Assembly: GCA_029213265.1 (NCBI GenBank)
Contig: JARGNG010000004.1
Location: forward strand, 62,001-126,000
Reading direction: 5' to 3'
Source: Verrucomicrobiales bacterium
Lineage (GTDB): Bacteria > Verrucomicrobiota > Verrucomicrobiia > Verrucomicrobiales > DEV007
DNA: 64,000 bases
This document shows positions 13,164-62,278 of the stretch, piece after piece. Position 1 is the first letter of the stretch. Each line of letters begins with the position of its first letter. Below the pieces are notes generated by a model. It was not told the origin of the DNA. It made no database searches and worked only from the letters and a program-made list of their open reading frames with translations. Both the position numbers and the translations under genes were made by a program.

Positions 13164-14132
13164 TTACTTCTTCTTAATTTCGAGAGTTTTCTCAGGTCCG
13201 TCTGCGCTTTGGTAAGAAATCATGGTGGAATCCTCATTCACCTTCACAACGCGGTATTTCGTATCCGGATCTTTCACGATATTGAAGGCATCTCCTTCTT
13301 TCACGAAAAATTTCTTACCAGGCTCCAGTTCGAACTCCAGCTCGGTAAAATAGGTGGGCAAAACGGTGTCTACGTTTCGTATCAGCTGAAATTCCTCGTC
13401 CTTCGGCAAATAGGTGATCGTAAGAACCGATGCATCCACTTCAATTCCAACGCTGCTCCGGGCGCGCTTCTCCTCGAAAGCGTCCAATCGGAACTGTTTG
13501 TCTTCGGAGATCTCTCCAATTCGAAGATAAAAGTTATCGCGCTGTGGCCATCTATTCGTGGGAAGGCGCATGATTTGAAATCGTTCCGCGTCAGGACGGG
13601 CCGAAAACTTGAGCTTGTACTCCTGCTGCTGCCGCGAATGCATAACGACCTTCCCCGCATAGGAAGGATGAGAGTCAGGATCTCTGGGCGCGGTCTTTTC
13701 ATTCCACTCTGTCAAATTGGTAAATCCATCACCATCTGTATCCTGCGAAAGCACTCCTGCGTTCAAGAAATCCAGCTCGTTCTCCATCAACCAGGAGTTG
13801 GTGACTGGCTCTCTGAGTTTCGGAGCATTCGGATCCAGCATGTCGATCAATTGCCCCCCAGATTCAACCACGGGAATGGAAACAAAAAGAGGCACCACTT
13901 TGGGGGGGGATCCCTTTTCAGGAGTTTTCCATTCAGGATTCACATCGACCACGATTTTCGCGTTGGAAACACGCTCGATCGGAATTTCCGGAAGCTCATT
14001 ATTGGGCTTCGCGGCCTCCATCGTAAACCTCTCCGAAAACCCCAGCGCCTTCATGACGAAAAGGCCGGACAGGCCGAGCACCACCACGCTCACGGCCGCC
14101 AGTAACATTTTATCCCAAGCGTTCTTATTCAT
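13164..14132 (-). CDS. Amuc_1099-like membrane-anchored periplasmic protein
   Basis: This 322-residue protein has one N-terminal membrane segment (about residues 9-30), a linker, and a periplasmic domain. Around residue 135 it carries DTDGDGFTNLTEW, a calcium-binding loop of the EF-hand/thrombospondin type-3 kind. The rest is predicted beta-rich. Its ATG overlaps the TAA of the preceding gene by one base, which suggests coupled translation. Position three genes after the 1102-like gene and next to the secretin matches Amuc_1099 of Akkermansia. Its biochemical role is unknown; bridging the inner-membrane complex to the secretin, as PilP does, is a guess. Confidence 0.75.
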   Translation of the reverse strand: MNKNAWDKMLLAAVSVVVLGLSGLFVMKALGFSERFTMEAAKPNNELPEIPIERVSNAKIVVDVNPEWKTPEKGSPPKVVPLFVSIPVVESGGQLIDMLDPNAPKLREPVTNSWLMENELDFLNAGVLSQDTDGDGFTNLTEWNEKTAPRDPDSHPSYAGKVVMHSRQQQEYKLKFSARPDAERFQIMRLPTNRWPQRDNFYLRIGEISEDKQFRLDAFEEKRARSSVGIEVDASVLTITYLPKDEEFQLIRNVDTVLPTYFTELEFELEPGKKFFVKEGDAFNIVKDPDTKYRVVKVNEDSTMISYQSADGPEKTLEIKKK

Positions 14133-15151
14133 TATCGCTTCTTACTGTTAGAATTGTTTTTCTCATCCTTCTTTGCCGCAGCATTCTGTTCCGCCGGACT
14201 CACGAAGCGGGCGATGTCCACAACCATGAAGACATTGAGCATTTCCTGTCCCATCAGGACTCTCGCATCCTGCTTGTCCATTTCGAAGCCCTCTTCACGG
14301 GCTGCCTGAATCAATTCGTCTTCACTGGCGTCCGGAAATCCCCATTCCACCAATTTGGCGTAATCAGCCTGTTCACCGGATACTGGGTTTTTGAAATTCG
14401 GCAGATCGGTAGTCCCATCTTCGGACACCAACTTGATAGGACCTTCCTGCTGATCATTACGAACTTTCAGGACTCGGAGGATGTAGAAGAAATCCTTGTC
14501 GTTGGCCATCTTGTTGATGAACTCCTGAAAGGCATCATGCCTCGCACGGATCCGCATCCGTATCGGATACTTGTGTACCACGCTGCTTTCATGGTCCTGG
14601 GCTCCACTTTCCTCGCCGGGAATGGGATCCCTCTCAAATGTTTCGAGGGCCACAGCACCGGAATCTACCAATTCGCGGAGCAGGCGATCAATCGCTTCCA
14701 ACTCGTAATCCAATAATGGCACCAGTTCCGGCGCTGGAATATTGGCCGCATAGACATCAAATCCCAATTGGAATTCACCCGGATCTTCGAGCAACGCCAT
14801 CTCATTCTCCTTGGCATATCCGCGAAACTCCTGGACTCGCTGGCGAACTAACTCCTGAAACTCCGTGTTTGTCAGCTCTGTATTGAGCGGCCTCTGAAAA
14901 GTTTGCAAAGCCTCGTAGAGGTCGTTTACAGCCTTTTCGTAATCCCCCTTCTTTTCCGCTAGCAATTGCGAGTTTTCCTCGTTGGGATAGGGGACTTTCC
15001 GTTCCAAGCTCTCGATTGTCCGCACCTTCTCATCCCAGCTGCCAAGGGCGCTCGAATATTTCTGATACTGTGAAAACGCGTAGAAGCCGGCGCCTCCAAT
15101 GACAAGCGCTGCGATCACCCCAAATGTTGTTAACCAAACCTTATGATTCAT
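14132..15151 (-). CDS. Amuc_1100-family pilus-associated protein (PilO-like position)
   Basis: This 339-residue protein has an N-terminal membrane anchor (about residues 7-28) and a coiled-coil region at about 30-110. A periplasmic alpha/beta domain follows (FQLGFDVYAA, then the strand YPIRMRIRARH before a helix FQEFINKMAN). This layout and its position between the PilM-like and 1099-like genes fit the Amuc_1100 family, best known from the Akkermansia protein reported to act on host TLR2. By topology it corresponds to PilO. I infer homology from layout and synteny, not from an alignment. Confidence 0.82.
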   Translation of the reverse strand: MNHKVWLTTFGVIAALVIGGAGFYAFSQYQKYSSALGSWDEKVRTIESLERKVPYPNEENSQLLAEKKGDYEKAVNDLYEALQTFQRPLNTELTNTEFQELVRQRVQEFRGYAKENEMALLEDPGEFQLGFDVYAANIPAPELVPLLDYELEAIDRLLRELVDSGAVALETFERDPIPGEESGAQDHESSVVHKYPIRMRIRARHDAFQEFINKMANDKDFFYILRVLKVRNDQQEGPIKLVSEDGTTDLPNFKNPVSGEQADYAKLVEWGFPDASEDELIQAAREEGFEMDKQDARVLMGQEMLNVFMVVDIARFVSPAEQNAAAKKDEKNNSNSKKR

Positions 15152-15179
15152 AGTCTTTCAGAATCGAAAATCCTAAAGA

Positions 15180-16925
15180 TTACTTCGAAAATTTCACCTG
15201 ATTGTCTTCCGGAAGAGGAATTACCATTTTAAAAGGATAGGCATACCGGTCGTTCCCGGTTCCCGCATCCACCTCAATTACATCGCTGATATCGACTCCC
15301 TCGAGGGCGAAAAAATTACCCCCGACGCCAGCCTCAGCATCTTCTTTCAGGCTTTCAAAGTAGCTGTATACGACCTGAGACTTACCGGGAGCGTTTTCGC
15401 GCCACAGTCCTCCTATCGAGAAGGAATCAATAGTTGATTCCACTCCTGTCGAAACAGCGGAGAGATCCGTCGCATCATCGGAAATGATGGGTCGACCTTC
15501 CGAAAGGGGTTCGAGCAAGGTAAAGAAAATTGCGTCTCCACTCAGTTTCTCACCCAGATAGTTAAAAACCCGAACCCAGTAGGAACGGTGCGTGGTCGCA
15601 TCAACGAAAGGCTGCTGCTGACCATCCAGAGTCACGATGGCCGCCTCTAGATCTTCAATCTCCTCGTTGTATTTTTTGAGATCGTCCGCTTTTCGCTCAA
15701 TCTCCTCCGCCTTCGCAGTGGTTACCTCCGCACCTTTCGTGAAAAAGAATCCCATGGCACCGAGGAACGCCGCCAGACATATCAGAGCAACGATCAGTGC
15801 CGGCTTCCTTTTGTTGAGATCCTTGGCCTTCTGAACGGACTCGGGAATCAATTCAATATCGACCGGAACCTCACCAGCCTGGCTGAGCGCGCTTCCCACG
15901 ACCTCTCCCAGAGTATGGGCATTTGCACTGACCAAATCATGGTCAGCACTGCCCGCTACGCTTACATTTCGAAAGGCATTGAAGTAGTCGACGGGGAGAT
16001 CGAGCTTTTCCGCGAAAAACTCACGGATGAACGGAAGACTGGAAGTCGAACCGCTCAGCAAGACAAATGCGGGAGCTCCCCCGCCCTGCTGGCTCCGATA
16101 AAATGTAATCGTCCGCATGATTTCCGAATGCAGACGGGTCAGAGAGTTTCTTACCACTTTCGAAATCCCGGCAATCTCCGGATCTTCGTGGTCGGCATAG
16201 GCACCGCCCAGGGCGACAAACCCATCTTTCACCTTTCGCTGATCGGCAGAGCTGAAATCAGCTCCAAATTCTTTTGCAATAGCCCGGGTGATGTCAGCCC
16301 CTCCGATCTTAACCGTTCGGATAAAGACCTTTCCGCCCTCCATGAAAATCATGTCCGTGGTCCGTGCGCCGATATCGACGAGAAGCGTAGCCTCCTCAAC
16401 ATCCCCATAATTGAATCGCAAAGCATTGTAGAGAGCCACCGGGGCCACTTCCGCGCCCATCGAACGAAGACCGGAACCCAATACCACCTCATCAATCTCA
16501 TTCAGTTCGTCAGACTTGACCGCGGCGAGAACGACTTCCACCTCGATGTCGTCCGGATCACCGGTCAACTGATATCCCCAAACCACTTCATTGATCGGGT
16601 AAGGAACCTGTTGCTGTGCCTCAAACTCAACAATCTGATCTACTTGAGAACCATCGAGCGCAGGAAGGCTCGCGAACTTCATAAGGACCGGGAAAGAGGA
16701 TACTACATAGGTGGTTTTTGCGCCCTTCGCCTTCAGGCTGGTGACGATCTCTTTCAAAGCGGCTGCACTCTGGGAATTCCGCGTATCTTCGTCAGCAGGA
16801 TCTCCAACAAATTCACGCCGCTCGATACGGTCCAGGCGAAGCCCTCCGCCACCGGTCTTCGAGAACACTGCTCCGGTGATCTGCTGTGACCCTATATTGA
16901 ATGCGATGATTCGATCGTCTGCCAT
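15180..16925 (-). CDS. pilM: PilM-PilN fusion-like protein (Amuc_1101 type)
   Basis: This 581-residue protein combines two pilus assembly functions. Residues 1-350 form an actin-like ATPase of the PilM/FtsA superfamily: the phosphate 1 region is IAFNIGSQQITG, phosphate 2 is LLVDIGARTTDM, and the adenosine-side motif is LLSGSTSSLPFI. Residues about 357-370 (ELIPESVQ) resemble the PilN start. A membrane helix lies at about 374-395, then a coiled coil and a small periplasmic domain. PilM and PilN are separate proteins in Proteobacteria, so this fusion anchors the ATPase-like part directly in the membrane. It lies third from the end of the operon, 28 nt before the 1100-like gene. Confidence 0.85.
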   Translation of the reverse strand: MADDRIIAFNIGSQQITGAVFSKTGGGGLRLDRIERREFVGDPADEDTRNSQSAAALKEIVTSLKAKGAKTTYVVSSFPVLMKFASLPALDGSQVDQIVEFEAQQQVPYPINEVVWGYQLTGDPDDIEVEVVLAAVKSDELNEIDEVVLGSGLRSMGAEVAPVALYNALRFNYGDVEEATLLVDIGARTTDMIFMEGGKVFIRTVKIGGADITRAIAKEFGADFSSADQRKVKDGFVALGGAYADHEDPEIAGISKVVRNSLTRLHSEIMRTITFYRSQQGGGAPAFVLLSGSTSSLPFIREFFAEKLDLPVDYFNAFRNVSVAGSADHDLVSANAHTLGEVVGSALSQAGEVPVDIELIPESVQKAKDLNKRKPALIVALICLAAFLGAMGFFFTKGAEVTTAKAEEIERKADDLKKYNEEIEDLEAAIVTLDGQQQPFVDATTHRSYWVRVFNYLGEKLSGDAIFFTLLEPLSEGRPIISDDATDLSAVSTGVESTIDSFSIGGLWRENAPGKSQVVYSYFESLKEDAEAGVGGNFFALEGVDISDVIEVDAGTGNDRYAYPFKMVIPLPEDNQVKFSK

Positions 16926-23673: not shown

Positions 23674-23785
23674 CTCCTGACAAACACACCAAAAACCTCC
23701 ATTGAATTGAATCCAGAACGTTCACTCCCATCCCTGCTCCTGCTCGTCGGAGAAGAGAGTAAGAACAAGATAAAGAGAAGAAACC

Positions 23786-23829
23786 ATACTGACCTAACCC
23801 TGTTATCACCCTGACCCAACCCTGTTGAA
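23786..23829 (+). promoter_or_regulatory. 11-nt-period direct repeats (AACCCTGTT) before the ABC permease
   Basis: AACCCTGTT occurs at 23797-23805 and 23819-23827. A related CACCCTGAC lies exactly between (23808), and a weaker CATACTGAC lies in front (23786). The period is 11 nt, close to one helical turn. The last copy ends 16 nt before ATG 23844. The same pair with the same 22-nt spacing occurs at 60995-61025. Direct heptamers every 11 bp are typical of OmpR/PhoB-type regulators, so an operator is my leading guess. Confidence 0.5.
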
Positions 23830-23843
23830 TCCCGCGAATTTTC

Positions 23844-25277
23844 ATGTCGTCCCCCGCCCCAGTTGAACCTCAGCCGCTCGATGCCCGTCTCTCGGACTTT
23901 TCGTCCCGGCTCAGTCCCATTGTGGTGAAAGAACTGCGACAGGGAATGCGAACCAATCTCTTTGTGATCGCATTCATCCTGCTGCAGACATTCATGATCC
24001 TCTGCATGCTAGCCGGACTGGCCAACCCCGGATCAAACGACGCGACCGGCTTTTTCTGGTTCTTCATCATTGCCACCATGATGGTAATCCAGCCGTTACG
24101 CGGATTCAGTGCCCTGAGCTCGGAATACCAACTCAACACCATGGATTTAATCCAGCTCACGAGACTCAACGGTTGGCGCATCACTTTCGGAAAATGGGCC
24201 GCGCTCAATGCCCAGGGACTGCTCTTTCTCGTCGGGGTCCTTCCCTATCTCGTCATTCGATACTTCGTGGGTAATGTGAATCTGGTCTACGATTTTTCAG
24301 CCATCCTCACCATCGGGGTTGCCTCGGCTCTGGCAACGGCCATTACGATTGGAGTCTCTGTCTTTCGCAGTATCGTTCTACGCGGCATTCTTCTCGTAGT
24401 CCTGCTGATTCTCGGCATCGTCGCCATCAATCTATTCAACTACTCGGTCCTCGGTAGGTCTGGTGGAATCACACCAGATCTGGCCAACGGCCTCCTTTAC
24501 GCGGTCGCCTCCGTGTTCGGGATCTTCTTTTTCCTCTCCTTTGGCGCCAGCCGCATCGCACCTTTATCCGAAAATCAGGCCACCCGGAAACGTTTGATTG
24601 CGATCGGCTCTGCCCTTCTTTGTCAAGCCTTTCACCTGTTGGGGAACAGTGAGGAAGCGATTGCCGTAACCGGAGTCATTCTCGGACTCGCCTGCATCGA
24701 TGCTTTGACGGAGCCGCTTCCCATCTTTTCGAGCATTGCGATTCCTTTTCGAAGGAGCCCCATTCTCCGCATCCTCGGCATCTTCCTGTCACCAGGCTGG
24801 TGCAGTGGGATTTTCTTCTTTCTTCTTTGCTCGGGTATCTGGGTCGGATCAATTCTCCTCTGGGACTTGACGGCATCGGCAAAATTCTTCACCAATTTCG
24901 AAGGTCCGGTTCTCTTCCTCTCGCTCTGCAACCTTATCATCTTCCCGCTTCTCATTCTCCACCTCTTCTTCGCAAAGCACAGCTCTCATCATTTCACCTT
25001 CGGCTTATACATTTTCACGCAGGCAAGCCTCTTTGGAATCACCTTGATGGCAACCGTCATCGCCAACGCATTGGGGAAATGGGAAGATTACGTCTACCTT
25101 TTCGTTCCGCTTCCCTCGGTTTTCATTGCCGGAAACGCGGGTGGGAGTGAAGCCGACGAAGCGATTCACTTCTGGATCGCCGTGAGCACATTCTTCGTCT
25201 GCGTTTGCTTTCCTCTTCTGCGACAGCACCGAAGTGCCCGTGCATTCTTTTCCACCCTGTGGCAAAACTCCGACTGA
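23844..25277 (+). CDS. ABC-2 type transporter permease
   Basis: This 477-residue polytopic membrane protein has about 11-12 hydrophobic helices. The N-terminal sequence LSPIVVKELRQGMR is the coupling segment typical of ABC-2 permeases (VxxKELR). It follows the ATPase gene after a 170-nt gap that carries the direct repeats. The stop TGA overlaps the ATG of the DUF58 gene by one base (TGATG). Together with the ATPase it should form an exporter or an envelope-assembly machine; the substrate is unknown. Confidence 0.82.
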   Translation: MSSPAPVEPQPLDARLSDFSSRLSPIVVKELRQGMRTNLFVIAFILLQTFMILCMLAGLANPGSNDATGFFWFFIIATMMVIQPLRGFSALSSEYQLNTMDLIQLTRLNGWRITFGKWAALNAQGLLFLVGVLPYLVIRYFVGNVNLVYDFSAILTIGVASALATAITIGVSVFRSIVLRGILLVVLLILGIVAINLFNYSVLGRSGGITPDLANGLLYAVASVFGIFFFLSFGASRIAPLSENQATRKRLIAIGSALLCQAFHLLGNSEEAIAVTGVILGLACIDALTEPLPIFSSIAIPFRRSPILRILGIFLSPGWCSGIFFFLLCSGIWVGSILLWDLTASAKFFTNFEGPVLFLSLCNLIIFPLLILHLFFAKHSSHHFTFGLYIFTQASLFGITLMATVIANALGKWEDYVYLFVPLPSVFIAGNAGGSEADEAIHFWIAVSTFFVCVCFPLLRQHRSARAFFSTLWQNSD

Positions 25278-43434: not shown

Positions 43435-43632
43435 ACTCACTCAAAAAACATCCCCGCAGCGTTCGGCACGGGAGCGCGAAAAGTATCGCCGTCCCACAAA
43501 ATGGAAACCGATTTGTTTGGAAATAGTCGGGAACAAATCACACGTGGAGATCAGATCCCCTGATCCGTTTCTCCAAAGCCCCCGTCGTTCAACCCCAACA
43601 GGATTACGTCGACCACCAAACCCTCTTTGCCT

Positions 43633-49441: not shown

Positions 49442-50227
49442 CTACAGCTTCACCGCACGGCTCGCCGCCATCATCGGCATCCAGCCCTGGAGCCCGGTTG
49501 ACTCCTCGTCCCAGTCGTCTTCGTAGAATCCCGTGATCGCAAAACCGGCGTCGCATTGGCCACCGATCTGCTCTTCCCAACTGTGGCTGAACTCAACACT
49601 CAACTGCGCCTCCATCTGATCGGAGAGCAACTCCGCTTCGGCATGCTCCAGATCAGAATACGGGAGACGATGCTTCACCACCAACTCGCCGGTCTCCTCC
49701 AACAGCTCGTGATCAAACAGGAAAAACGCCGGATTCATAAATCCGCAAAGCAGCGAGCCGCCCGGTTTCAGAACCCGGTGGCATTCCTTCCAGATCGGAG
49801 GAAGCGACTCCGCAAACACATTCGAAACTGGATTAAAAATGAAATCGAACGCCCCGTCCTCCAACCCTGTAAGGTCCGCCATGTCACCCTGTTGAATCAC
49901 GATGGAAAGCCCGAGCCGGGCACAGGTCTCTTCGTCTTTCCGCAACTGCACATCGGAGGCATCGAAAGAAACCACCTCCGCTCCCGCCGAGGCAAAAATC
50001 GGCACCTGCTGGCCGCCGCCACTGGCAAGCGCCAGAATCTTCACTCCCTTCATATCCGGGTAGGAAGGGAACCACGATTCCGGAACCGGCTTGTTCGGCG
50101 TGAGAATGACCGACCACTCCCCTGCTTTGGCCTTTTCAAAGACCTCATCCGGATACGGCGTGCTCCAGCGGCAGCCTTCCTCCGACTGCAGATTCCAGGC
50201 GTTGCGATTGTATTCGGTGATGTTCAT
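49442..50227 (-). CDS. Class I SAM-dependent methyltransferase
   Basis: This 261-residue enzyme has the SAM-binding motif I as ILALASGGGQQVPIFA, the acidic ribose-binding end of strand 2 (VVSFDASDVQL), GDMADL for the adenine site, and FIFNPVSNVF as motif IV. The methyl acceptor is unknown. It resembles the Methyltransf_11 type proteins that act on small molecules. M8 of a slightly longer frame (50248) is used as the start. It is divergent from the ABC exporter genes. Confidence 0.85.
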   Translation of the reverse strand: MNITEYNRNAWNLQSEEGCRWSTPYPDEVFEKAKAGEWSVILTPNKPVPESWFPSYPDMKGVKILALASGGGQQVPIFASAGAEVVSFDASDVQLRKDEETCARLGLSIVIQQGDMADLTGLEDGAFDFIFNPVSNVFAESLPPIWKECHRVLKPGGSLLCGFMNPAFFLFDHELLEETGELVVKHRLPYSDLEHAEAELLSDQMEAQLSVEFSHSWEEQIGGQCDAGFAITGFYEDDWDEESTGLQGWMPMMAASRAVKL

Positions 50228-57630: not shown

Positions 57631-60263
57631 TCCTGACGATCCGATTTGAGTTCTGCGTTTCGAAATCCCACCACCCACGCAACGATCGCGGCGGCACCCA
57701 CGGTGAGGAGCCCGAGTAGGAGAAAAGATGCCCAGGGAACCCGGTAGACGAGGGTCCAGCCAAAGCTCTGCGGGTTGATGACATAGATCAGAACCCACCC
57801 TAACAAAAAACTGAGCAAAATTCCTCCAACGTAGCCCACCATCGCCAACCCGGATCCTTCCCACATCGTCGACCGTGCGATTTCCCTCCGCGTCGCCCCG
57901 AGCGACTTGAGAGTGGTCAGTTCGTTTCGCCTTTCCAGCAACAGCCCCGCCAATGCCAGCCCCAGCCCGCTCACCGCGATAATCACGGCAATGGCCTCGA
58001 GCGCATAGGTCACTGCAAAGGTCTGGTGAAAAATCCGGATCGATTCCTTCCGCAACTTGGCATTGGTCCTCGCATTCAAAAACGGAAACTCAGAGTGGAT
58101 TCGCTCAATCAGTTGCTCGTGGTCCGTGCCGTTCTCCGCATAGAGCGCGATATTGGAAATGCTCGTATCTGAAAACCAGCGACTCGTGTGCTGTCGGGAC
58201 ACGATCAGCGTACCGGTTTCGTTTCCATATTCAGCAAAAACCCCCGCTACCGTGATCGGCTGAATCCCCGCAGGCGTCGGAAGAGCAATCGGGCTTCCCA
58301 GCTCGATATCAAATCTCCGGGCCATTGATTGCGAGATCCAACCCGGATAGCGATCTCCTGTCATTTCCTCGAGCGCATGCGGCCCCTTGTCCTTCGGCGG
58401 GTCGACCCAGATCAGCTGCAAATATCGCTCGGGGTCGTCGTTGTAGTCGGCTCCGCCCAGGAAGAAATCCCCGCCCCTGGAGGAAATTGTGTAGCGCCTC
58501 AACTTGTCCATCCCGGCCACTCCCGGCATCTCCGCAATCCTTTGCCAGGTCTCTTCCGAAACCGTGTTTTCGTTCGCCACGGAATTCGCGCCTGCCGCAG
58601 CGATGTAGATATCCGCCTTCAGCAATTGATGAATCCATGAGGTCAACGTCGTTTCAAAACTTGCCACGAGAATTCCCATGGCTGCCGACATCCCGATCGC
58701 GACGGCAAGACCTGCCGCAGTCAAACGATGACGGCCTTCCGGTCTTTTGAGCTGACTGGCCGCATACGACCACATTACGTTGCCCTTCAGGCGGGCCAGA
58801 AGAGCCGCCATCGGCCGAAACAGCGAACCGATCAAAATGCTCGCACTGAAAACGAGCACCATCGCGGAAAGATAGCCGCCGATCGGGACGGTCGTTCCCG
58901 AAGACATCGTGACCGGTTGGAGAAACGCCAGACCGAGGCCCACCGCAAGCAGGAACCAACCCAGCGGACGGTTCCGAAGCAAGGCCAGTCCCCCGCCCTG
59001 CGTGCCCTGGCGCATCGTCTGAGCCGGGGGAGTCATCGACGCCTCCCGGGCCGGGATCATGGCCGCCACGACGCTGGCAGCGAGACCAAAAAAGAGACAG
59101 AACAGAATTTCGCTTCGCTCCAGCACAACCGCCGTGGTCGTCGTTTGGTAGTAGATCGTATTCACGGTTTGAGCAATCGCGCCCACCATTCCAATTGCGA
59201 GGAGCCGGCCCAACAGAATTCCCACGACCGCTCCGACCAGGCCCAGAATGATCGCCTCAAGCAGCCAGGCGGAACGGATCTGACCCGGCGTCACCCCGAG
59301 CGACCGCAGGATCGCAATCTCGGATCGCCGTTTCACGACCGATGCCTCCATTGCCTGCAGGATCAGATACATTCCAACGAGCAGGGCGAGCCCCGAAAGA
59401 ATCGTAAGATTGAGCCGGAAAGCGGCGCTCATCTGGGTGACCGACGATTTCCGGTCCTCCGGTGTTTCGAGGAGAAACTGGTTCGCGGCCGCGTAGTCCC
59501 ACACCCGTGCGAGGGCCTCGTTCTTCACCTCTTCACTCTTCGGACCGGGAGGAACCCGAAATTCGACCCGGGTGACGGATTGGGGATGCCCGGACAAAGT
59601 CTGCAAGCCCGGCAGGTCGAGAAGGACCAGGTTATCGGGAACTGCCGCACGATTCGGGTCTTCCGGGAGGACACCCGCGATGGTAAGATCGACCGAACGA
59701 TCATTCACAATGATCGCCAGAACATCGTCGACCTCCACCCCGAAGCGCTTCGCGAAAGAGGTCCCTACAAATCCCCGGTCGGGCTTTCCAAGAACGCTGT
59801 TTTCTCCGCCACGGGCCCCACCCCCGAAAGACTGCGCCCCGCCCTCGGCGTAATTCCCCGCATTTTGCAGAGCGACAAGGTCAGCCCCGACAAGGCGCAG
59901 GAGCCCCTGTTTCTCATCGCTCCCAACGACTCCGGTTGCTTCCAATACCGGAAAAATCCCGATGGGATGGGAGCCGGTCAGATCTCTCAATTCCCGCAGC
60001 ACACCTTCCTCCAGTATTCCCGAGCGCGGACGCAAAATCGCATCACTCTCCCCCGCGATCGATTCGGTGAACATTCCGAAGCCGGAAACCGCCGCCTTGT
60101 TGGCAAGACGGACCGAAAGGAATACCGCCACGCCCAGCGCGAGGATGAGGATCAGAACCAGCGTCAGCCGAAATTCCTTTTTCCAATGCCTCCAGATCAG
60201 GCGGGACCACAAAAGCCGCCCGATCGCCCAATTGCCCGGAGGCGATGACCCGGGTCTACTCAT
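57627..60263 (-). CDS. Long FtsX-like ABC permease (AttFG-type)
   Basis: This 878-residue permease has an N-terminal membrane helix near residues 30-50 and a first periplasmic domain. Helices at about 280-400 surround RRSEIAILRSLGVTPGQIR. A four-helix middle part follows, then a second periplasmic domain and a final three-helix set around RRNELTTLKSLGATRREIA. This two-repeat layout corresponds to AttF and AttG of Agrobacterium joined in one chain. It is coupled by ATGA overlaps to the ATPase gene upstream and to the AttH-like gene downstream. The cargo is probably a lipid or lipoprotein; that is inference. Confidence 0.88.
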   Translation of the reverse strand: MSRPGSSPPGNWAIGRLLWSRLIWRHWKKEFRLTLVLILILALGVAVFLSVRLANKAAVSGFGMFTESIAGESDAILRPRSGILEEGVLRELRDLTGSHPIGIFPVLEATGVVGSDEKQGLLRLVGADLVALQNAGNYAEGGAQSFGGGARGGENSVLGKPDRGFVGTSFAKRFGVEVDDVLAIIVNDRSVDLTIAGVLPEDPNRAAVPDNLVLLDLPGLQTLSGHPQSVTRVEFRVPPGPKSEEVKNEALARVWDYAAANQFLLETPEDRKSSVTQMSAAFRLNLTILSGLALLVGMYLILQAMEASVVKRRSEIAILRSLGVTPGQIRSAWLLEAIILGLVGAVVGILLGRLLAIGMVGAIAQTVNTIYYQTTTTAVVLERSEILFCLFFGLAASVVAAMIPAREASMTPPAQTMRQGTQGGGLALLRNRPLGWFLLAVGLGLAFLQPVTMSSGTTVPIGGYLSAMVLVFSASILIGSLFRPMAALLARLKGNVMWSYAASQLKRPEGRHRLTAAGLAVAIGMSAAMGILVASFETTLTSWIHQLLKADIYIAAAGANSVANENTVSEETWQRIAEMPGVAGMDKLRRYTISSRGGDFFLGGADYNDDPERYLQLIWVDPPKDKGPHALEEMTGDRYPGWISQSMARRFDIELGSPIALPTPAGIQPITVAGVFAEYGNETGTLIVSRQHTSRWFSDTSISNIALYAENGTDHEQLIERIHSEFPFLNARTNAKLRKESIRIFHQTFAVTYALEAIAVIIAVSGLGLALAGLLLERRNELTTLKSLGATRREIARSTMWEGSGLAMVGYVGGILLSFLLGWVLIYVINPQSFGWTLVYRVPWASFLLLGLLTVGAAAIVAWVVGFRNAELKSDRQE

Positions 60264-60940
60264 TCCGACTCGGCCTCGTCCTGACCGACAATCTTTCCGT
60301 CACGCATTTCGAAGGTTCTTTCGCAGATCCGGGTGACGTTGCGACTGTGCGTTACGAGAAGCATCGCGATTCCATGGCGATCGCTGAGGGATTCGAGAAG
60401 ATCGAGAATCGCATCTCCGGTGGTGGAGTCGAGATTACCGGTTGGTTCGTCAGCCAAAATCAATCGCGGACGAATCGAAAGCGCCCGCGCAATCGCAACC
60501 CGCTGCATTTCCCCACCGCTCAGTTCATGCGGCATGGCATGGGCGCGATGGGAAAGTCCCACTTCTTCGATCAATTCGGTCACCCTTTCCTTCCTTTCCC
60601 CATCGCTCAATCCGGCCAATTGGAGCGGAAATTCCACATTTTCCGAAGCGTTCAAAGTCGGGAGCAGGTGAAAAAACTGAAAAACCGTGCTGACCGTGTT
60701 TCGCCTCAACTGGCAGAGACCTTCCTCATCGAGGCCGGACAAAGAACGACCATCCACTGTGATTTCGCCCTCGTCGACACGGTCGATTCCCCCGACACAG
60801 TTGAGCAGCGTGCTCTTTCCGGAGCCGGAAGGCCCCATTAGAGCAGCTCTCTCGCCGGCCTCGAGGACGAGAGAAACGCCCCGAAGCACCGGATCAGCGT
60901 CGTATGATTTTGTGACCTTGGATACTTGCAGGGCTTTCAT
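60260..60940 (-). CDS. LolD/AttE-type ABC transporter ATPase
   Basis: This 226-residue ATPase has Walker A GPSGSGKS, a Q-loop in FQFFHLLPTLNA, signature [15 protein letters not shown], Walker B LILADEPTGNLD and an H-loop THSRN. It is the first gene of the minus-strand operon ending at 54741. Its promoter must lie in the 93-bp gap to the divergent E2 gene, a gap that also holds the AACCCTGTT repeats. Confidence 0.92.
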   Translation of the reverse strand: MKALQVSKVTKSYDADPVLRGVSLVLEAGERAALMGPSGSGKSTLLNCVGGIDRVDEGEITVDGRSLSGLDEEGLCQLRRNTVSTVFQFFHLLPTLNASENVEFPLQLAGLSDGERKERVTELIEEVGLSHRAHAMPHELSGGEMQRVAIARALSIRPRLILADEPTGNLDSTTGDAILDLLESLSDRHGIAMLLVTHSRNVTRICERTFEMRDGKIVGQDEAESE

Positions 60941-60994: not shown

Positions 60995-61025
60995 AACCCT
61001 GTTAGGTCGTTGATCTAACCCTGTT
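60995..61025 (+). promoter_or_regulatory. Direct repeat AACCCTGTT (22-nt spacing) before the E2 gene
   Basis: AACCCTGTT lies at 60995-61003 and 61017-61025, starts 22 nt apart, exactly as in the leader of the gene at 23844. The last copy ends 8 nt before ATG 61034. The middle copy present at the other site is lost here (GTCGTTGAT). It could be an operator for this gene, for the divergent ABC operon, or for both. Confidence 0.5.
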
Positions 61026-61033
61026 CACTCATC

Positions 61034-62278
61034 ATGCCCCGCTTCCCGATCCACATGCCGCAACTGGGAGAATCCATGGCTGAGGCCACGGTTCAAGAAA
61101 TTTTCATTTCCCCGGGCGATACCGTCTCGGCCGACCAGAATATCTTCGAAGTCGAGACCGACAAAGCCATGATGGAGGTAACGACGCCCTGCGGAGGAAC
61201 CATTTCGGAAATCACCTGCGAAGTGGGAACCAGCTACGCAGTCGGTTCGCAGCTCGCCTTTATCGAAGCGAGCGAGGAAGACGCCATCAAAGCGGGATTG
61301 GTGAAACCTGATTCCGGAGAAACCGAAGAGGTTTCGGAGGAACCGGAGACCACCGACGAAGACTCGGTGCATTTCAAGGTGGATGAGGAAAGCATGATTC
61401 ACCATAACCAGAAGGAGGAGCCGCGCTCGGTCAAACCGACGGTCGACGGCAGTCTTCCCGTTCCGATCCGGTCCAGCGTCTATCTCAGCCCGAGAATGCG
61501 CCACCGCATGGAGGAACTGGGTTTGAACTCCGCCGACCTTGCCGGGCTTCCCGGAAGTGGTGCCGGCGGTCGCGTCACCGTGGAAGACTTTGAGAACTTT
61601 ATCAGCGACCTGGAGCAGAATCACATGACCGATGCTTCGCCCATGCGAATTGCGGTCGCCGATTCGATGCGTCGAAGCTGGACCCGCCCACTCGCGACTG
61701 TGACCGTCCCGATCCTGATGGACCGGGTGCTCAATCACCGGAAGTCTCTCGATCCCAAGCCCGGGGTCACTCTCTACGCGATGCGGGCTCTCGCGATCGC
61801 TCTTTCGGAAAACACGGCCGTGGCCGGTCGGCTCATCGGCAACCGGATCGTGCACCCGAATGCGATCGATATTGGATTTGCCGTCGAAGTGGAGGACGGG
61901 GTTCTCGTTCCCGTCATCCGGAACGTCGAGCAAAAGGGACTGCAGGAGTTGCAGGCTCCCTACGAAGATCTCGTCAAACGCGGCCAAAACCGGAAACTTC
62001 CTCTGGAGTCAACCGGGGGCGGAATTGCCACGGTCACCAACGTCGGCCCCTTCGGAATCACCGATGCGACCCCAATTCCCCTTCCGGAGCAGAACCTGGT
62101 TCTTGGAATGATGGCCGGACGGAAGCTTCCGATCTGGGATAGGGAGAAAGACGATTTTGTGCCGAAAATCGAGTCCAATTTCATCCTCAGCTTTGACCAC
62201 CGAATTCTCGACGGAGGAGCCGCTGGACGACTCCTGCAACGAATCGATCAGCTTCTTCAGGAGCCGGAAAAGTTGTAG
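61034..62278 (+). CDS. Lipoyl-dependent acyltransferase (E2-like)
   Basis: This 414-residue E2 of a 2-oxo acid dehydrogenase type complex has an N-terminal lipoyl domain (HMPQLGESMAEATV, lipoylated Lys in ETDKAMMEV), an acidic linker, a subunit-binding domain (YLSPRMRHRMEELGL) and a catalytic domain with the active site SFDHRILDGGAAG. It differs from the sucB gene product in the window and has no E1 alpha/beta or E3 gene next to it. Candidates are a branched-chain, acetoin or pyruvate complex E2; I cannot choose. A repeat element precedes it. Confidence 0.88.
   Translation: MPRFPIHMPQLGESMAEATVQEIFISPGDTVSADQNIFEVETDKAMMEVTTPCGGTISEITCEVGTSYAVGSQLAFIEASEEDAIKAGLVKPDSGETEEVSEEPETTDEDSVHFKVDEESMIHHNQKEEPRSVKPTVDGSLPVPIRSSVYLSPRMRHRMEELGLNSADLAGLPGSGAGGRVTVEDFENFISDLEQNHMTDASPMRIAVADSMRRSWTRPLATVTVPILMDRVLNHRKSLDPKPGVTLYAMRALAIALSENTAVAGRLIGNRIVHPNAIDIGFAVEVEDGVLVPVIRNVEQKGLQELQAPYEDLVKRGQNRKLPLESTGGGIATVTNVGPFGITDATPIPLPEQNLVLGMMAGRKLPIWDREKDDFVPKIESNFILSFDHRILDGGAAGRLLQRIDQLLQEPEKL

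Follow-up and report, generated by a model that had tools for sequence, protein, structure and literature searches.

Tandem ARG boxes, the operators of ArgR/AhrC, consist of two 18–19 bp palindromes that are separated by a short spacer, lie on one face of the helix, and are bound by a multimer. OmpR/PhoB boxes are direct repeats in phase with the helix and lie close to gene starts, and integron core sites carry RYYYAAC/GTTRRRY arms in an attC hairpin and are accompanied by an integrase. The DNA uptake sequences of the Neisseriaceae form species dialects (PMC3630211), and some of their copies are located within genes. Opitutus terrae is described as rich in REPs of the GTAG family (PMC3733652).

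The window analyzed here, a stretch of 64,000 nucleotides, carries a two-box element, GACCT-AACCCTGTT-ATCACCCTGACCC-AACCCTGTT-GAATC (23791–23831, + strand; delimited from the sequence and a profile of 50 direct sites), in the gap between an ABC transporter ATPase gene (PF00005; 22621–23673, + strand) and the gene for a 477-residue ABC-permease-like membrane protein (23844–25277, + strand). Both box 1 (23796–23804, + strand) and the gene-proximal box 2 (23818–23826, + strand), which lies 17 nt 5′ of the permease ATG (23844), read AACCCTGTT, and the profile resolves the 13-nt spacer between them (23805–23817) as degenerate, with half-site arms and a 3-nt centre. The product of 23844–25277 is presumed to be a permease from its position and hydrophobic appearance; no Pfam match was found for it. 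The initial annotation had described four related 11-mers at 11-nt steps, and these are present (CATACTGAC at 23785, AACCCTGTT at 23796, CACCCTGAC at 23807, and AACCCTGTT at 23818), as is the second exact direct pair that it had noticed elsewhere in the window (60995–61025, + strand), which lies between two divergent genes, one for an ABC ATPase (60260–60940, − strand) and one for an E2 2-oxoacid dehydrogenase acyltransferase (61034–62278, + strand). Two degenerate pairs, each with two mismatches, were also observed: a head-to-head pair (43597–43627) in the codirectional gap upstream of a gene that by eye is truB-like, and a direct pair (49863–49893, + strand) within a − strand gene, which may be a chance match. 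In the window the 9-mer AACCCTGTT occurs four times (mean in shuffles, 0.25) and the AACCCTGTT pair, with up to three mismatches, three times (0.01 in shuffles). Elsewhere in the window (14132–16925), neighbouring − strand genes resemble, by eye, those for PilM/PilO-type pilus assembly proteins.

We searched the host genome (a 5.87 Mb draft in 182 contigs) using the reversed motif as a control. The initial annotation had made its reading depend on an excess of the pair over chance genome-wide, and the exact pair AACCCTGTT-N13-AACCCTGTT was found 29 times versus 0 for the control; with up to one mismatch there are 58 direct pairs, and with up to two mismatches 97 versus 0. Head-to-head pairs of the form AACAGGGTT-N13-AACCCTGTT occur at the same 22-nt pitch (32 exact, 80 with up to one mismatch; control 0), as do tail-to-tail pairs (4 exact, 12 with up to one mismatch; control 0), and the lone 9-mer was counted 296 times versus 35. 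The window element is one of roughly 150 putative operator arrays of two to four boxes in the host genome. Genomic context was analyzed for 85 sites with no more than one mismatch, comprising all 29 exact and 21 of 29 one-mismatch direct sites, 30 of the 32 exact head-to-head sites, and, for the tail-to-tail form, all 4 exact and 1 of 8 one-mismatch sites; 6 more sites with two mismatches were listed and excluded from the context counts. Genes were called for this purpose with a purpose-made simple caller, not a standard one.

The core unit is the polar 9-mer AACCCTGTT, with a central CCT (AGG in reverse), in the middle of an imperfect palindrome of ~19 bp that is longer in another genus. When any central trinucleotide was allowed in the left box, CCT or AGG was found in 61 of 67 sites, indicating a polar word that can face either way. 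Profiles built from 50 direct sites and 30 head-to-head sites show an arm on either side of the box, so that the full unit reads GACYCAAC-CCT-GTTGRGTC and adjacent units are separated by a 3-nt centre. Boxes form arrays at a strict 22-bp pitch, i.e. two helical turns. In two array-dense genomes, G127 (stretches chosen regardless of single sites) and G016 (another genus; mostly contigs known to carry the pair), boxes are spaced by 22 (28 and 36 cases, respectively), 44, or 66 nt; no other spacing recurs and 11 is never seen. Arrays in these stretches contain two to four boxes each and occur about once per 14–18 kb. Lone boxes are near the control level (39 versus 28 in G127, and 46 versus 47 in G016), implying that two boxes are the minimum unit. 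The middle of the 50 direct sites shows just a weak GRNTC-NNN-GACYC, and the two intermediate 11-mers of the window lie outside the recurrent motif; the 11-nt step seen in the initial annotation is the alternation of two symmetry centres, that of the box and the 3-nt centre, and the true period is 22. In G016 the arrays end in a fixed TTTCCGATC...GATCGGAAA extension (L311–L330), as if the putative operator there were ~29 bp long. The arrangement is like that of tandem ARG boxes in that two palindromes (here 19-bp units with 3-nt centres, close to the ~3 bp separation of ARG boxes) with a short spacer share one helix face; the arrays differ in their sequence, polar core, three orientations, and number of boxes (up to four), and have no arginine gene theme.

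Of the 85 sites, 70 are in gaps and 15 are inside genes, whereas the window is 91% coding, so the pair is not equally frequent inside genes, the second point on which the initial annotation had made its reading depend. The gap sites are distributed over 50 codirectional, 13 divergent, and 7 convergent gaps. No preference for starts over stops was observed in codirectional gaps, the nearer gene end being the start in 25 of 50 cases in the host genome and in 33 of 81 among other loci (a set, L031–L145, that includes four viral contigs and species with repeated genomes, so that its counts are not independent); the corresponding values are 0 of 10 in G127, where all ten arrays are nearer the stop, and 3 of 8 in G016. 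Direct pairs are oriented toward the gene that follows them in 22 of 29 codirectional gaps of the host genome and in 53 of 71 of the other loci, with 30 of the 147 one-mismatch direct sites of the latter, located at contig edges, excluded from the orientation counts. For exact sites in codirectional gaps of the host genome, the box nearer the gene is oriented toward it in a ratio of 30:8 and the distal box in a ratio of 16:22; the gene-proximal bias was not reproduced in the small samples from G127 (5:5) and G016 (5:3). The genes adjoining arrays are functionally mixed, by eye, and include pheS, dnaG, recF, ligA, tpiA, thrS, folA, pyrF, a thiE-like gene, and sulfatases. No regulon by gene function was apparent, the adjoining genes being unrelated housekeeping genes, and no regulator theme was found in the 25 commonest of the 109 Pfam families among 95 flanking proteins.

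These observations bear on the proposal that the arrays are operators of an OmpR/PhoB-type response regulator and that a second transcript, for the permease half of the cluster, starts there. Like OmpR/PhoB boxes, the window element is a helically phased direct repeat just 5′ of a start codon, and direct pairs mostly face the downstream gene. However, a direct repeat of ~7 nt every 11 bp, as the initial annotation supposed, is not what is found: spacings are 22, 44, and 66 only, the units are palindromic and used in both orientations, head-to-head pairs are no rarer than direct ones (80 versus 58), and the flanking genes show no regulatory theme. The profile of 50 direct sites shows no conserved −10 at a fixed distance. 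A second transcript is not favoured, because sites in codirectional gaps are no closer to starts than to stops. What stands of the regulator-box reading is a recurrent, gap-enriched motif with the appearance of a protein site; its assignment to the OmpR/PhoB type is improbable.

Covariation between the arms, tested for the 85 host sites about either centre, did not exceed what the number of tests allows, which argues against a hairpin. In a mixed-species set of sites two positions covary, equally about both centres, which we read as species dialects. No left-right covariation was found between the ends of G016 arrays at single sites. The identity distribution of spacers within the host genome shows no excess of near-identical pairs, indicating that the arrays are not recent copies. 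Orientation relative to the replichore is not significantly biased (GC skew on the box strand is positive at 27 of 50 host and 64 of 147 other sites). The arms fit the integron consensus RYYYAAC/GTTRRRY, although hairpin covariation is absent in the arrays. An RNA element, i.e. a leader or 3′-end hairpin acting on translation, processing, or termination, would account for the palindromic arms, the orientation bias with transcription, and the placement of all ten G127 codirectional-gap arrays just past stop codons, but is hard to reconcile with the absence of within-genome covariation and with in-gene direct sites in both orientations (four the same as the gene, five opposite). No Rfam match was found at the element site, where the only matches (E 0.2–0.9) were to eukaryotic families and below the cut-off. 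We consider such an element improbable to a similar degree as the OmpR/PhoB assignment.

Among 239 genomes of the order, a dialect-tolerant direct pattern matched 41, almost all from one family (genera g1, g4, and g8). The highest numbers of direct pairs per genome are 643, 312, 302, and 198, compared with 0 or 1 per genome for the control, and within one genus array number ranges from 0 to hundreds. The box exists in species dialects (GACCCTGTC, TACCCTGTT, and AACCCTATC). A scan over 84,980 species returned at least 111 loci, and all 80 titled loci are from Verrucomicrobia. Three genomes of a second family of the order (G088, G145, and G165) have four isolated matches, all containing ACCCTGTTTAATTCAACnCTTAACCCTGTT or a close variant of it, at both 11- and 22-nt spacing; these are possibly a different, older conserved site. 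Neither AACCCTGTT nor AACAGGGTT gave anything relevant among the matches listed in open-licence PMC full text, and the matches listed there for palindromic repeats or binding motifs in Verrucomicrobia contained no prior description of the element.

Comparison of orthologous positions revealed that matched genes of other species are also beside an element for 14 of 19 element-downstream genes versus 10 of 35 control genes. Alignments show boxes and pitch retained and flanks diverged, e.g. in five species before the gene for an NA37 nucleoid-associated protein (PF04245); at one orthologous site the pair is direct in one species but head-to-head in a second. With up to three mismatches, and with the host included, the pair is present upstream of 15 of 29 NA37 orthologues (0.8 expected) and 14 of 27 permease orthologues (0.7 expected). 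At the ATPase-permease junction of relatives the remnant differs in place and sequence, with four boxes of the TACCCTGTT dialect in one congener and AACCCTATC in another. Within dxr (L008), codons covered by the element have an identity of 0.75 versus 0.46 elsewhere, a level reached in 4 of 355 non-overlapping windows, and the peptide QGCLxDPTGL at codons 58–68, where array-poor congeners have other residues, appears to be imposed by the DNA element. The dxr site is intact (no more than one mismatch) in 15 of 19 array-rich versus 2 of 10 array-poor congeners, in a comparison that is confounded by relatedness, excludes G127, and uses a threshold for array-rich (15 pairs) set after the counts were seen; such a distribution is expected of a shared trans-acting factor. 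In G127 (643 pairs, TACCCTGTT dialect) the dxr site is destroyed.

A DNA-uptake or recombination signal of the DUS/USS kind, with species dialects and tolerated in-gene copies, would explain both the dialects and lineage limits of the arrays and the in-gene copies that shape a protein, as in dxr. The arrays differ from the uptake sequences of Neisseriaceae in needing two boxes at 22 bp, in being far fewer (about one per 14–18 kb in G127 and G016), and in being enriched in gaps, with strong avoidance of genes in the host genome. Uptake signals of this kind depend on a single word over-represented genome-wide, whereas here lone boxes are near chance in both dense genomes, so the unit is more than a single word. 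We regard this explanation as very unlikely.

The chief competing explanation is a selfish REP-like repeat, i.e. a short palindromic intergenic element, mostly in head-to-head dimers, that is spread by a transposase and slowly decays. Similar to REP/BIME repeats of the GTAG and CGTC families (PMC3733652), the arrays are intergenic (70 of 85 host sites in gaps) and palindromic, are commonly head-to-head (80 versus 12 tail-to-tail), and are uneven between species, ranging from 0 to hundreds of copies among congeners; the lack of a regulon fits as well. In contrast to such repeats, they show no stem with compensatory changes, either among the 85 host sites or at G016 array ends, and form no families of near-identical copies. 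Their 22-bp pitch is rigid in arrays of two to four boxes, direct pairs are common whereas head-to-tail REP dimers are said to be rare (PMC3733652), and sites are retained at orthologous positions and in dxr codons. We judge this alternative unlikely, though less so than the others; were the arrays mobile after all, they would constitute an odd, phase-locked class of REP-like repeat.

We favour, with a probability of a little under 0.6, the interpretation that the arrays are cooperative two-box operators for one putative, globally acting DNA-binding protein. They lie mainly in gaps, irrespective of the neighbouring genes, and persist at orthologous positions across large divergence while their sequence drifts as dialects. 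A single cooperative trans-acting protein, which would recognize all arrays and co-evolve with them, fits the rigid two-turn pitch, the need for at least two boxes, the polar core between symmetric arms, the dialects, and the way sites have decayed in parallel where this family of elements is scarce. It would probably bind as a dimer per box, with cooperativity between neighbours on the same helix face, in a geometry like that of tandem ARG boxes. The lack of both a regulon and a start preference argues for a global role over pathway control, and the protein probably acts as a global factor, perhaps in nucleoid structuring or at operon gaps. Several observations count against operators: the lack of a regulator theme among the 25 commonest Pfam families of the flanking proteins, the range from 0 to hundreds of arrays in one genus, the destroyed dxr site of G127, the in-gene arrays of G016 (12 of 28 inside called genes, the gene calls being uncurated), and the unreproduced orientation bias. 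The position of the array inside a gap also differs between orthologues, which is odd for a fixed operator, and the arrays could be selfish rather than useful.

A broader proposal, which we put forward only tentatively, is that the arrays belong to a lineage-specific global chromosome system, in which a cooperative binder restricted to about three genera of one verrucomicrobial family would mark hundreds of gaps via two-turn-phased arrays, its dialect having drifted per species to the point of shaping the proteins encoded by genes that carry a site. The presence, with no evident regulon, of up to several hundred conserved arrays in a genome would imply an abundant DNA-binding protein unrecognised in the phylum, and the strict two-box grammar and dialects make identification of the binder and protein-DNA co-evolution directly testable.

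Exact pairs also occur in four viral contigs (L142–L145). Those in L142 and L145 look like chance matches, and the other two (L143:488–518 and L144:4591–4621) are the same region of a verrucomicrobial-looking phage in two IMG/VR contigs. A phage origin of the arrays was rejected. The direct pair of this phage lies 5 nt upstream of the ATG of a short gene that has no assigned family. Arrays are additionally observed within conserved coding sequence at L190 (lipB-like) and L153 (iscS-like), and the iscS orthologues L031 and L135 likewise carry an array in the gene.
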